Under the pieces are notes generated by a model that saw only the letters and a list, made by a program, of their open reading frames with translations, did not search any database and had not been told where the DNA came from. Shown piece after piece: positions 16,808 through 21,147 of a stretch of DNA of 64,000 nucleotides. Origin of the DNA: Flavobacteriales bacterium (GTDB lineage: Bacteria > Bacteroidota > Bacteroidia > Flavobacteriales_D > Crocinitomicaceae). The DNA lies in NCBI GenBank assembly GCA_947449575.1, contig CANFRV010000020.1:1-64000 (forward strand), read 5' to 3'. The position numbers and the translations under genes were made by a program. Numbering within the stretch: position 1 is the stretch's first letter; every line of letters starts with the position of its first letter.

Positions 16808-16838
16808 CATTATCAATTCCACAGCGGTGGATTTAAAT

Positions 16839-16960
16839 TTTATAAAGAAGAGGTTAGAGACTGGCTCATAGATCCTCTGGCAACCAACTTAAAGTCTGTC
16901 TTTTGGCAGATTGGAAAACCGGTGCCAATTCCTGATTCCGAATTTACGGGAGAATATAAA
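16839..16960 (+). ncRNA. SAM-I (S-box) riboswitch
   Basis: An RNA leader that binds S-adenosylmethionine and lowers expression of methionine synthesis genes. The conserved core is clear: GAGACTGGCTCATAGATCC then CTGGCAACC (16857-16885), a variable hairpin AGTCTGTCTTTTGGCAGATT, and GGTGCCAATTCC (16921-16932). P1 is TTTATA (16839-16844) paired with TATAAA (16955-16960). No terminator with a U tract follows. The leader ORF starts ten bases after P1, so control at translation initiation of that ORF is possible. Confidence 0.95.
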
Positions 16961-16970
16961 TTAATAAAAT

Positions 16971-17084
16971 ATGGAAGCAATTAAAAAAAGTACCGCATTC
17001 AATTCACTTTCTTATCTCAAGAAAAAAACAATTTCACTAACAAATTTTGATTTTCGACATTTTCCATGCTGTTTTAGTATGTGA
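16971..17084 (+). CDS. Leader ORF of 37 codons after the SAM riboswitch
   Basis: A short ORF begins with ATG ten bases after the riboswitch and encodes 37 residues, MEAIKKSTAFNSLSYLKKKT at the start and RHFPCCFSM at the end, then TGA. It is not recognised as a known family. Two adjacent Cys codons sit six codons before the stop, and the last codon is Met. It ends 81 bases before metX. Position, size and the Cys-Cys end suggest a regulatory leader peptide that senses cysteine or methionine supply, but translation is unproved and a random ORF of this size is possible. Confidence 0.5.
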   Translation: MEAIKKSTAFNSLSYLKKKTISLTNFDFRHFPCCFSM

Positions 17085-17165
17085 TTTTCGCTAAAAGAAT
17101 TTATCATACACGATTTATTCCAATTAAAATTTTTAGTTATTCATTTGTTTTTAATAGTAGATATT

Positions 17166-18290
17166 ATGTCATTCAATCATACAAGTTTTAATACCAAAGA
17201 TCAAAATATTCCAGTTTTGAATAGTAATCCAATTTCTTTTGAATCAAAAGTCTTCAAATTATCAACGCCTTTTATTACAGAAGGTCAAAAGGAATTAAAA
17301 AATATACAAGTTACGTATCATACGTATGGTGAATATATTCCCGGTAAAAGTAAAGTCATTTGGGCTTGTCACGCATTAACGGGAAATAGCGACGTGTTTG
17401 ATTGGTGGCAAGGATTGTTTGGAGAAAATGCTTTTTTCAATCCTAAAGATTTTTTCATCGTTTGCGCAAATGTTCTAGGTTCTTGTTATGGTACAACAGG
17501 GCCAGAGCATAGCGGGGAGAATGGTGATCCGTTATTGAATAATTTCCCATTGATAACGCCTCGAGATATGGCGCGTTTACACGATCTTTTAAGAAACCAT
17601 ATCGGTGTGGCAAGTGTTAATACGCTAATAGGAGCTTCTTTAGGAGGACAACAAGCATTAGAATGGGCGATAGAGGAGCCAAAAATAATTGAAAACTTAA
17701 TTTTGATTGCTACCAATGCCAGACATTCAGCATTTGGAATTGCTTTTAATGAATCTCAAAGGTTAGCAATATATGGTGATCCAACGTATGGGAAAGGAGA
17801 AATTGGGGATGCTAAAAATGGTTTGGCGATTGCAAGAAGTATTGCTATGCTTAGTTATCGCTCTTATTCAGGGTATGAGAAAACACAAGCGGAGCAAGAT
17901 GATGCGCTAACGGATGGATTTAAAGCCAGCTCATACCAAAGATATCAAGGAGATAAATTAGCAAAAAGATTTAATGCATATTCATACATTACACTTAGTA
18001 AAGCAATGGATTCTCACAATGTGGGACGTGGAAGAGAATCCATCCAAAAAGCATTGAGTTTAGTGGAGGCAAAAACCTTAGTAGTTGGAATAGATTCTGA
18101 TTCATTATTTCCAATTTCTGAACAGTATTTTTTAAAAGAGTCTATTTCCTCCGCTAAATTCGCTATGATTTCATCTGATTTCGGTCATGACGGCTTTTTA
18201 GTTGAAAATACGCAATTAGTAAATATCATTAGTGATTTCTTATACAATCAATTTAAAAAACATTTACCAACAACATTTAAAAAAAAATAA
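17166..18290 (+). CDS. metX: Homoserine O-acetyltransferase
   Basis: Acylates homoserine, the first committed step of methionine synthesis. The protein has the alpha/beta-hydrolase MetX layout: THYTYGE-like start of the core (VTYHTYGEY), ACHALTGN, GTTGPEH, the nucleophile elbow GASLGGQQ with Ser158, and the late Asp (GIDSDSLFP) and His (FGHDGFL). I choose ATG 17166 (374 residues, MSFNHTSF) over an upstream in-frame TTG at 17145. It is the first full gene after the SAM-I riboswitch and lies 10 bases before homoserine dehydrogenase. Acetyl rather than succinyl specificity is inferred from the family. Confidence 0.92.
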   Translation: MSFNHTSFNTKDQNIPVLNSNPISFESKVFKLSTPFITEGQKELKNIQVTYHTYGEYIPGKSKVIWACHALTGNSDVFDWWQGLFGENAFFNPKDFFIVCANVLGSCYGTTGPEHSGENGDPLLNNFPLITPRDMARLHDLLRNHIGVASVNTLIGASLGGQQALEWAIEEPKIIENLILIATNARHSAFGIAFNESQRLAIYGDPTYGKGEIGDAKNGLAIARSIAMLSYRSYSGYEKTQAEQDDALTDGFKASSYQRYQGDKLAKRFNAYSYITLSKAMDSHNVGRGRESIQKALSLVEAKTLVVGIDSDSLFPISEQYFLKESISSAKFAMISSDFGHDGFLVENTQLVNIISDFLYNQFKKHLPTTFKKK

Positions 18291-18300
18291 AAAGTAGAAA

Positions 18301-19545
18301 ATGAGAAAGCAATTAACAATAGGATTATTCGGATTTGGCTGCGTTGGAGCAGGTTTATATGAAGTATTAAATCAATCTAATTTATTAGATGCGAAAATAA
18401 AACGAATCGTTGTAAAAGATCCAACAAAAAAAAGGACCTTGAGTGCTGATTTTTTTGGATTTGAAGCTTCCGAAATATTAAATGATTCTGAAATTAATTT
18501 AGTAGTTGAATTAATTAATAATAGCGATGATGCCCTAGAAATTGTGAGGGAAGCGTTGTCAAAAGGGAAGCATGTTGTATCAGCAAACAAGAAGTTAATC
18601 GCAGAGCATTTAGATGAATTGATTCAATTAGCGAAAGAAAATAAGGTTTCTTTTTTATATGAAGCATCTGTTGGAGGCTCGATTCCAATTATTAGAAATT
18701 TGGAGGAATATTACAATAATGATTCTCTTTCTTCCGTGCAAGGGATTGTCAATGGAACAACCAATTATATTTTGACACAGGCGAATTATGGGGTTTCCTA
18801 TGATGATGCTTTAGCAAAAGCGCAAGAGTTGGGTTTTGCAGAGTTGGATCCAACGTTGGATGTTGACGGTTTTGATTCGAAATATAAATTGACGTTATTG
18901 ATAAAACATGCATTTGGTACTTCTGTTAATCCGGGCAATTTGTTCAATTATGGAATTCGTCAAGTTAAACCGCAAGATGTTTCATACGCGTCTGAAAAAG
19001 GATATCGAATTAAATTGTTTGCGCGTGCTGAAAAAGTAGGGAACAAAATAGTTGGTTTTGTCGCTCCACATTTTATTAATAGTGTTCATCCAGCGTATCA
19101 GGTTGATAATGAATTTAATGCAGTGATTGTGGAGGCTTTGTTTTCAGATAAACAATTATTTTTCGGGAAAGGAGCAGGAAGTTTTCCTACAGCAAGTGCA
19201 GTTCTTTCTGATATTTCCGCCATTCAATTTGAGTATCAATATGAATACAGAAAAGCAGTGAAGGATGCGACACCAACGTACACAGATGATTTTTTCTTAA
19301 GAATCTATTTAGCTTCTAATTCATTAGATAAAATTAATGAGATCCCCTTTTACAAAATAGACGAGGTGTTTCAAAGTTCTAATTATAGTTTTCAAACAGG
19401 CTGGGTGAAATTTAGTGATTTGAAGAAAATTGATTTTAATAATGAATCAAATTTATTTTTTGCAGTTTTACCAGATGCATTTGCGGACGAATATGAAGTA
19501 GAGAAGGTGATAAATAAGAGTAAATTTGTTGTCAGTGAATTTTAA
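18301..19545 (+). CDS. hom: Homoserine dehydrogenase
   Basis: Reduces aspartate semialdehyde to homoserine, the shared precursor of threonine and methionine. The 414-residue protein has the N-terminal dinucleotide-binding motif GLFGFGCVGAGLYE, the VSANKKLI segment, the catalytic region SVGGSIPIIRNLEEY with VNGTTNYIL, and AELDPTLDVDGFDSKYKL. The C-terminal 90 residues start FFLRIYLAS and resemble an ACT domain that has diverged. It is in the SAM-controlled operon right after metX, so homoserine supply here is tied to methionine demand. There is no fused aspartokinase. Confidence 0.93.
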   Translation: MRKQLTIGLFGFGCVGAGLYEVLNQSNLLDAKIKRIVVKDPTKKRTLSADFFGFEASEILNDSEINLVVELINNSDDALEIVREALSKGKHVVSANKKLIAEHLDELIQLAKENKVSFLYEASVGGSIPIIRNLEEYYNNDSLSSVQGIVNGTTNYILTQANYGVSYDDALAKAQELGFAELDPTLDVDGFDSKYKLTLLIKHAFGTSVNPGNLFNYGIRQVKPQDVSYASEKGYRIKLFARAEKVGNKIVGFVAPHFINSVHPAYQVDNEFNAVIVEALFSDKQLFFGKGAGSFPTASAVLSDISAIQFEYQYEYRKAVKDATPTYTDDFFLRIYLASNSLDKINEIPFYKIDEVFQSSNYSFQTGWVKFSDLKKIDFNNESNLFFAVLPDAFADEYEVEKVINKSKFVVSEF

Positions 19546-19567: not shown

Positions 19568-19978
19568 ATGAGCCTAGAATTAATTAGAGTAGAAGAGCCT
19601 TTTGTTTTTGAATTAAGAAATGAAGAAGGCGTTGTTTGTGGAATTGATGCAAGCCCAGCGATTGGAGGCAAAGGAAAGGGGTTTCGTCCAATGGAATTAA
19701 TGGCAGGCTCTTTAGCAGGATGCGCTTCTATTGATGTGCTCTTAATTTTAAAAAAACAGCGTATTATCCCCACTCATTTCACGATAAAAATTGAAACGAA
19801 AAGAGTGGATGCGATTCCTTCTTATTTTGAGGAAATAAAATTAATTTTTGAAGTGAATAGGGATGTCCCAGTAGAAAAATTAGAGAAAGCAATTGACTTG
19901 ACATTGAAAAAATATTGTTCCGTCTCTGCCTCTTTAAAAGAAGAAGTAAAGATCATCTTTGAAGTGAAATATAGTTAA
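19568..19978 (+). CDS. OsmC family protein in the methionine operon
   Basis: A 136-residue OsmC/Ohr superfamily protein. The two conserved reactive cysteines are visible: Cys52 in AGSLAGCASIDVL and Cys117 in KKYCSVSASL. Family members reduce organic peroxides or hydroperoxides with these thiols, though many are uncharacterised. It is wedged between homoserine dehydrogenase (22 bases) and the sulfhydrylase (11 bases), so it must be co-transcribed under the SAM riboswitch. That placement suggests a link to sulfur or thiol chemistry, which is inference only. Confidence 0.88.
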   Translation: MSLELIRVEEPFVFELRNEEGVVCGIDASPAIGGKGKGFRPMELMAGSLAGCASIDVLLILKKQRIIPTHFTIKIETKRVDAIPSYFEEIKLIFEVNRDVPVEKLEKAIDLTLKKYCSVSASLKEEVKIIFEVKYS

Positions 19979-19989
19979 AAAAAATAGAA

Positions 19990-21147
19990 ATGAATCAAGA
20001 AACTCAAGCAATTCGAATCCAAGCCGAGCGCTCTCAATACAAAGAACATTCTGTCCCGCTTTATTTAACTAGCAGTTATGCTTTTGATGATGCGGAAGAA
20101 ATGCGTGCATTATTTGCGGAAGAAAAGGATGGGAATATTTATTCACGTTACTCCAATCCAAATGTTCAGGAATTAATAGATAAAATGTGTGCTCTTGAAA
20201 AATCAGAAGATGGATGGGCGACAGCATCAGGAATGGCTGCTGTTTATACTGTTTTTGCATCCTTGTTGAGCGCAGGTGATCACATTGTTTCTTGTCGTTC
20301 TGTTTTTGGATCAACTCATAGATTGTTAACGGAGTTTTTACCAAGGTGGAATATTACTTCTACGTACGTTGATTTTGATCAATACGACGAGTATGCGCAA
20401 GTAATTCAAGAAAATACGAAACTTGTTTACATCGAAACACCTTCAAATCCTGGTTTAGATATTATCGACATTGAAAAATTGGCAACTATTTGTAAAAATA
20501 AAAATGTGCTTCTAATCGTTGATAATTGTTTTGCAACACCTATAATACAGCAACCTATTTTGTTTGGAGCAGACATCGTTATTCATTCAGCTACTAAATA
20601 TATTGATGGGCAAGGAAGAACATTAGGCGGAATTATTTTATCTACCAAAGAAATTATCAATAAAGTAGAAGCTTTTGCAAAGCAAACAGGACCTTGTTTA
20701 AGTCCTTTTAATGCATGGGTTCTTTCCAAATCGATTGAGCTGCTTCCTTTAAGAATGGAAAGACATTCTTCAAACGCATTAAGTATTGCAAAAAAGTTAG
20801 AAGAAAATAACCACGTTAAATGGGTGAAGTATCCTCATTTGAAAAGTCATCCTCAATATGAAATTGCCAAAAAACAAATGAAATGGGGTGGGGGAATAGT
20901 GACTTTTGAAATTGAAGGTGGACTGCAAGCTGGGCGAAATTTTTTAGATAAATTACAACTATTTTCATTGACAGCAAATCTAGGAGATACAAGAAGTATC
21001 GCGACTCACCCCGCATCAACAACCCATTCAAAATTATCCTCCGCGCAAAGGGAAGAAGTAGGTATTTCTGATGGTTTAATTAGATTATCAATAGGTTTAG
21101 AATCTTTGGAAGATATATGGATGGATGTGGAGCAAGCGTTGAAATGA
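19990..21147 (+). CDS. metZ: O-acyl-homoserine sulfhydrylase (PLP enzyme)
   Basis: PLP-dependent enzyme that makes homocysteine from an O-acyl-homoserine and sulfide. The 385 residues show the Cys/Met metabolism family motifs: YSRYSNPNV, ATASGMAAV, YIETPSNPGLD, VDNCFATP, the PLP-binding SATKYIDGQGR with Lys203, and the C-terminal SLTANLGDTRSIATHPAST and RLSIGLESLEDI. With metX in the same operon, O-acetylhomoserine is the likely substrate, although the sequence resembles proteins named O-succinylhomoserine sulfhydrylase (metZ). It closes the riboswitch operon; no terminator hairpin is obvious after it. Confidence 0.88.
   Translation: MNQETQAIRIQAERSQYKEHSVPLYLTSSYAFDDAEEMRALFAEEKDGNIYSRYSNPNVQELIDKMCALEKSEDGWATASGMAAVYTVFASLLSAGDHIVSCRSVFGSTHRLLTEFLPRWNITSTYVDFDQYDEYAQVIQENTKLVYIETPSNPGLDIIDIEKLATICKNKNVLLIVDNCFATPIIQQPILFGADIVIHSATKYIDGQGRTLGGIILSTKEIINKVEAFAKQTGPCLSPFNAWVLSKSIELLPLRMERHSSNALSIAKKLEENNHVKWVKYPHLKSHPQYEIAKKQMKWGGGIVTFEIEGGLQAGRNFLDKLQLFSLTANLGDTRSIATHPASTTHSKLSSAQREEVGISDGLIRLSIGLESLEDIWMDVEQALK

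Follow-up and report, generated by a model that had tools for sequence, protein, structure and literature searches.

Classical attenuators such as those of the trp, leu, and his operons carry a leader peptide with pathway-linked codons and RNA structure around its end. Cysteine can be the amino acid concerned: poly-Cys leader open reading frames (ORFs) have been described before cys operons in Actinobacteria (PMC1262725), and Cys-responsive attenuators with leaderless ORFs have been described in mycobacteria (Canestrari 2020 as cited in PMC9031893). Within Bacteroidota, leader-peptide attenuation was reported before amino-acid operons of F. psychrophilum (PMC9723704), and possible leader peptides were reported in B. 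thetaiotaomicron (PMC7366714). Riboswitches can also act on a short ORF rather than directly on a gene, as in M. tuberculosis, where a B12 riboswitch controls a translated upstream ORF (uORF) before ppe2 (PMC11260477). For S-adenosylmethionine (SAM), SAM-I switches with an initiation site in or beside helix P1 are known, and SAM-I has been reported from Bacteroidetes (PMC2258182); in S. meliloti, metA has a SAM-II switch and translation starts at a distant AUG (PMC9373788). Shine-Dalgarno sequences are naturally missing from Bacteroidetes mRNAs, and initiation in F. johnsoniae is enhanced by adenines at -3, -6, -12, and -13 (PMC6847099).

Here, we describe a locus in which a SAM-I aptamer is followed by a short ORF ending in Cys and Met codons and then by metX. 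We propose, with a probability of roughly 0.6, that such leaders form a riboswitch-gated, ribosome-mediated leader-peptide attenuator which senses the charging of Cys- and Met-tRNA. No description of this combination in Bacteroidota was found in the open-licence PMC literature, which leaves out most subscription journals; the supplements of PMC9723704 could list a case.

Results

A SAM-I aptamer, a short ORF, and metX lie in tandem

The window, i.e., the whole stretch of 64,000 nucleotides that was analyzed, had been described in a first-pass annotation as containing a SAM-I riboswitch, a 37-codon ORF ending in PCCFSM, and metX. All three were confirmed (Table 1). RF00162 was the sole RNA family above its gathering score in an Rfam scan of the window, and the match agreed in sequence and structure with the full-length model (62 bits against 44.4). 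The peptide encoded by the leader ORF ends in ...FRHFPCCFSM, directly followed by the stop codon. Its ATG (16971) lies 8 bases behind the end of the Rfam match, within two bases of the ten that had been claimed, and the 81 bases from the leader stop to the metX ATG (17166) are as originally given. The 3' strand of P1 is the proposed initiation stretch, which would be hidden upon SAM binding. Just 5' of the aptamer, at 16818-16831, we observed a perfect inverted repeat, TCCACAGCGGTGGA, which was picked up as a terminator-like site in the terminator scan and is perhaps located at the 5' end of the transcript.

Table 1. Positions in the window of the aptamer, the leader, and the genes downstream
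Feature	Position	Strand	Basis
SAM-I riboswitch aptamer (RF00162)	16837-16962	+	cmscan 62 bits, E 5.6e-12, gathering score 44.4, model 1-108 of 108
P1 3' strand, A/T-rich, 8 bases 5' of leader ATG	16955-16962	+	Rfam alignment
Leader ORF, 37 codons plus stop TGA (17082-17084)	16971-17084	+	ORF list; same place and end type in relatives
Tandem Cys codons TGC TGT of leader	17067-17072	+	read from sequence
Predicted hairpin GTATG...CATAC, 5' side includes stop codon region	17077-17111	+	57-nt fold, -7.0 kcal/mol, z -1.9 (window locus, listed as L063)
Met codon of leader, abutting stop	17079-17081	+	read from sequence
metX, homoserine O-acetyltransferase	17166-18290	+	TIGR01392 329 bits (cut-off 500), PRK00175 299 (cut-off 331)
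Homoserine dehydrogenase	18301-19545	+	NF004976 340 bits, above cut-off
OsmC-like protein	19568-19978	+	PF02566
Cys/Met-metabolism PLP enzyme, nearest O-succinylhomoserine sulfhydrylase (MetZ type)	19990-21147	+	PRK08133 502 bits (cut-off 522, just below); PF01053

The window leader has two Cys codons only, neither of which adjoins the stop codon, and on their own they prove nothing, since two or more Cys among the last 12 codons are found in 15 of the 343 ATG ORFs of 20 to 64 codons in the window. A homology search with the 37-residue peptide in 59 genomes yielded, beyond the window itself, a convincing match only to a near-copy (genome G002, locus L133), with all others at an E value of at least 0.077. 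The near-copy shares 98% in MetX, and its leader has the same two Cys. The record of L133 is titled as a Chryseobacterium gleum metagenome-assembled genome and that of a relative, L136, as Crocinitomicaceae; the label of L133 looks doubtful. The ORF is far above chance only once relatives are included.

Cys- and Met-rich leaders are conserved across Bacteroidota

Three sets of loci were compared. The first comprised 90 metX loci of the same family and order, 67 of them with a SAM core, and the second 80 named GTDB loci, 60 with a SAM core; Hymenobacter is overrepresented in this named set, and two genomes of the family set occur in it again (by length and leader, L133 corresponds to the G002 contig and L136 to that of G018). 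The third was class-wide: from the 85 of 217 genomes with a metX match, one genome was taken for each of 34 families, and six more were added, 40 in all. A leader was called when an ATG ORF of 12 to 64 codons started 18 to 63 nt after the GGTGCC core and contained at least two Cys in its last twelve codons. This rule was passed by 50 of the 67 family and order loci with a SAM core (46 with at least three Cys) and by 53 of the 60 named ones (48 with at least three), compared to 4.4% and 1.8%, respectively, of random sites in the same loci. When the ORF was chosen blindly with respect to Cys, as the longest, 87/107 still had at least two Cys, a choice that in Hymenobacter often takes a longer overlapping frame.

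Among the 17 misses of the family and order set, 12 are leaderless and have metX itself starting at that place, three have leaders with zero or one Cys (G132, G157, and G083), L131 has no ATG ORF there, and the sole ORF of L220 runs past the fetched stretch and may be metX. In six family operons without a SAM core near metX, extension of the stretch upstream revealed a SAM-I aptamer and a leader before the preceding gene in all six.

In the class-wide set, an Rfam SAM match was present upstream in the sense direction in 16 of the 40 loci, and 14 of these 16, from ten families, have a Cys- or Met-rich leader end as judged by eye; the peptides of L289 and L292 are the same as those of named loci L197 and L169. 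The two exceptions are L263 and L295, and in the latter metX starts there directly. One leader is as short as 19 residues (L298, ...QACCITRMR), and that of L293 ends mainly in Met (...SMRMRMPMSCFSYMCA). Typical tails are MCCMCCCCCMC (L074), RMRMCCCRPCCC (Hymenobacter), QMCCCCCC (L128), and HCCCMCCCCC (L124). Four Spirosoma loci (L193, L198, L205, and L211) have very short leaders of 13 to 15 residues (...QxCMPxxAY), in which a CMP motif is conserved and Cys occurs once or twice. In the Lacibacter loci L202 and L203, a further in-frame stretch downstream, MYNNNYTNSSFAACMQCCCICCMP, is followed by a stop with a small hairpin, and the true Cys leader may be located there rather than directly behind the aptamer.

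The composition of the leaders was then quantified. In 48 distinct family leaders, the last twelve residues are 38.7% Cys and 13.0% Met, compared to 0.9% and 1.4% in the rest. The corresponding values are 49.5% and 12.8% against 1.0% and 1.2% in 32 Hymenobacter leaders, and 29.9% and 12.7% against 1.0% and 0.7% in 17 others. The leaders used here and in the fold and codon tests below were picked by a Cys/Met-favoring score among the few candidate ORFs of each locus, and the enrichment is far beyond what this choice could give. Since both residues are abundant in the tails, both are candidates for the sensed amino acid. The first-pass annotation had suggested cysteine or methionine supply as an input to the operon. 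In the relatives, the ORF ends are rich in both pathway-linked codons; the window copy is a weak instance, with two Cys and one terminal Met.

The leader follows metX/metY aptamers and is absent behind the metH ones examined

Of the best-scoring 30 SAM-I loci of the same family, 29 precede metH and one precedes a cystathionine-synthase-like gene. No Cys leader was present behind the metH aptamer in any of the 29 loci examined. The condition under which the original proposal would have failed, lack of the ORF in relatives with the same riboswitch, was thus not what we observed: the Cys-ending ORF is kept behind metX/metY SAM-I aptamers across Bacteroidota. A role of the metH expression platforms as intrinsic terminators was considered and found to be hardly supported (5/30 against 1.6 expected). 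One locus, L274, contains two SAM-I aptamers. The first is followed by a hairpin with a T-run and a PLP-enzyme gene, and the second by a leader ending in PCCMCICCPCC and then metY; they lie at 313-424, on the side of the terminator-like hairpin, and at 1868-1980.

A pattern of four Cys codons before TAA or TAG occurs in 53 of 80 family genomes, at a rate per genome about equal to that of a reversed control, and is thus mostly due to chance. Of 30 such loci that were read, only three have an ATG ORF that reaches 20 codons, and in each case it is a SAM-I leader of the kind described here. In genome G092, this 15-base Cys/stop pattern is repeated five times in steps of about 158 bases (contig C18:26-673), i.e., as a tandem array.

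The aptamer adjoins whichever start codon follows P1

In the family, the leader ATG is found at a median of 41 nt past the core, directly after P1. Of 49 family leaders, 45 have A at -12 and 42 have it at -11, positions which in the window are both inside the P1 3' strand; only 27, 24, and 23 have A at -3, -6, and -13, respectively. A start codon directly after P1, with adenines at -11 and -12, fits riboswitch control of leader translation. Moreover, three members of the window's genus (G001, G006, and G007), which form one clade with support 100/99, have lost the leader, and their metX ATG lies 40 to 42 nt after the core. The same swap from leader to metX was observed in G074 and in eight loci of g2, another genus of the family. 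The aptamer thus seems to act on whichever start codon stands at this position, and we consider these leaderless relatives to be the best evidence for it. The idea that a riboswitch-controlled leader provides a second input to the operon is therefore partly supported: conservation, the ATG directly after P1, and the adenines at -11 and -12 favor it, and the mere two Cys of the window leader and the absence of the leader from some relatives do not.

The main rival to attenuation is translational coupling as for ppe2, in which the riboswitch would control the start of the leader and metX would be read mainly by reinitiating ribosomes, so that a shortage of Cys or Met would lower metX expression. 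The position of the leader between aptamer and gene agrees with such coupling, as does the appearance of metX in the leader's place after its loss, and a riboswitch-controlled uORF required by the downstream gene has a precedent (PMC11260477). However, leader and gene are 81 nt apart in the window, and elsewhere the distance is usually tens to more than 200 nt, in contrast to the AUGA overlap described for ppe2 (PMC11260477), and Bacteroidetes leader genes suited to reinitiation are reported to peak at 11 to 14 bp (PMC4833913). These long gaps speak against reinitiation, and coupling gives no reason for terminal Cys and Met codons. We thus regard it as unlikely, yet as the alternative to be taken most seriously.

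RNA structure is in excess around the leader stop codon

Folding was compared to shuffles made by a simple dinucleotide-keeping swap, few per sequence (5 to 40). For 57 nt around the stop codon of 93 leaders, the mean z was -1.35, and bases of the stop codon were paired downstream in 74. RNAalifold on 35 named leaders, of which 32 were from Hymenobacter, yielded no consensus of use (-1 kcal/mol), and the stop-codon stem was scored directly after this null result. The best stem including the stop codon reached 14.5 in the 32 Hymenobacter leaders, where shuffles gave 10.5 (maximum of 40 means, 12.2), and 10.1 in 44 family leaders, where they gave 8.7 (maximum, 9.9). Hymenobacter stems read TAGCC:GGCTA in some species and TAAGC:GCTTA in others, i.e., by eye, paired changes accompany the change of stop codon.

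As to the consequence of this structure, terminator-like hairpins were found in 13 of 44 family loci, with 4.3 expected. Blocking the Cys tail in silico opened the predicted metX start in 17 of the 44 and closed it in none. Blocks placed 15 and 30 nt farther upstream opened it in 18 and 12 of the 44, so the opening partly follows distance. The same block made no difference in 43 named loci, largely from Hymenobacter, where it opened the start in 4 and closed it in 3. In many Hymenobacter leaders, the stop codon is followed by a C-rich stretch, which would suit Rho. With these mixed terminator and metX-start results, no single read-out is established, and the read-out may differ between lineages.

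In the window, a terminator was searched for between leader and metX and none was found, and the leader as a whole folds no better than its shuffles (z -0.35). An alternative for the window is that its leader is decaying from a functional element and no longer senses Cys or Met. It has two Cys, as has its near-copy, where other members of its genus have tails such as MCCCM or LCCCCRMS, and one clade of the genus has dispensed with the leader altogether. Still, this copy has retained its start, length, and position and is predicted to form a hairpin at the stop codon, and we consider its decay to be improbable.

In Hymenobacter, constraint on the leader is concentrated in its tail

In Hymenobacter, tails evolve more slowly than first parts at both kinds of sites (pS 0.29 and pN 0.16 against pS 0.55 and pN 0.38). 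TGT accounts for 107 of 202 leader Cys codons in L135 to L190, compared to 67 of 474 in long ORFs of the same loci, a count in which nested starts enter several times. The slow synonymous sites and the preference for TGT indicate that codon choice or RNA pairing is constrained too. Such constraint would also be expected if the Cys run were an RNA element, with UGY repeats pairing downstream, rather than a coding signal, and in several family loci the Cys codons do pair downstream. Nevertheless, an ATG just behind P1 and a frame open to a stop right after the run recur across families, the frame repeatedly contains Met codons and, in Hymenobacter, also Arg codons, TGT and TGC replace each other, and length changes of Hymenobacter tails are whole codons, which makes a pure RNA element very improbable. 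It is just as hard to credit that the leader is a small Cys-rich protein acting in trans in metal or redox functions and co-regulated with Met synthesis: the ORF is long conserved and its Cys content is high, but the part before the tail is hardly conserved, length varies from 13 to 56 residues, the Cys run is at the very end, scans of the leaders against NCBIfam and Pfam gave nothing above cut-off, and the leader is readily lost. Both of these readings are less likely than attenuation and reinitiation.

Discussion

The attenuator that we propose is based on position, phylum-wide conservation, enrichment in Cys and Met, absence behind metH, and the excess of structure at the stop codon. The SAM-I aptamer would decide on ribosome access to the leader ORF, in that the SAM-bound P1 would hide the A-rich initiation stretch before the ATG. 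At low SAM, the leader would be translated, and its Cys/Met-rich end at the stop codon would hold the ribosome under a shortage of charged tRNA-Cys or tRNA-Met. A held ribosome would prevent folding of the RNA around the stop codon. Clean termination would permit a hairpin including the stop codon, Cys codons, or both, and expression downstream would fall, via a terminator or Rho in some lineages and via occlusion of the metX start in others. The methionine genes would thus reach their highest activity at low SAM combined with a shortage of sulfur amino acids. Our confidence in this direction of the response is below that in the overall scheme.

In a wider sense, the loci may represent a ligand-gated leader peptide across Bacteroidota, in which one mRNA leader before metX/metY reads first the SAM pool and then charged tRNA-Cys and tRNA-Met. 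Such a gate of the AND type, in bacteria whose initiation does not depend on Shine-Dalgarno sequences, with stop-codon hairpins and lineage-specific read-outs, is in our view about an even bet. If true, sulfur amino-acid synthesis would be under a widespread regulator throughout a phylum, and nature would offer an example of a riboswitch that regulates an attenuator peptide instead of a gene. The scheme predicts dependence on SAM, on the Cys and Met codons, and on the leader ATG, all of which can be tested. The findings also suggest annotation of short ORFs that end in Cys behind metX/metY SAM-I aptamers; the NCBIfam and Pfam models recognized none of those scanned here.

Compared to the trp, leu, and his attenuators, the leaders share pathway-tied codons and RNA structure near the leader end; they differ in that initiation would take place beside a ligand-binding aptamer and that a terminator is often unrecognizable, and absent in the window. 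With the SAM-I switches that have an initiation site at P1, they have in common that aptamer and start codon directly adjoin, except that here the start codon is that of a leader peptide and not of an enzyme gene. As for ppe2, the first target of the riboswitch would be a short ORF upstream of the gene, in the window 8 nt after the Rfam match. The ligand is another one there, the uORF overlaps the gene start whereas the window leader stops 81 nt short of metX, and no amino-acid-specific codon run was found in the description of the uORF (PMC11260477).

The closest likeness in the peptide is to the actinobacterial and mycobacterial Cys leaders, with contiguous Cys codons near the stop of a short ORF upstream of sulfur amino-acid genes. 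A poly-Cys run of the mycobacterial type near the stop is present in most relatives, the window having only CC. The actinobacterial cases are described as likewise lacking an obvious terminator (PMC1262725). Unlike these leaders, those described here stand behind a SAM-I aptamer, precede metX/metY and not cys genes, contain Met codons as well, and occur in Bacteroidota; moreover, they start internally, the window leader after a full aptamer longer than 100 nt, and not at the mRNA 5' end as does the mycobacterial leaderless small ORF. None of the literature found combines a SAM-I aptamer with a Cys/Met leader.
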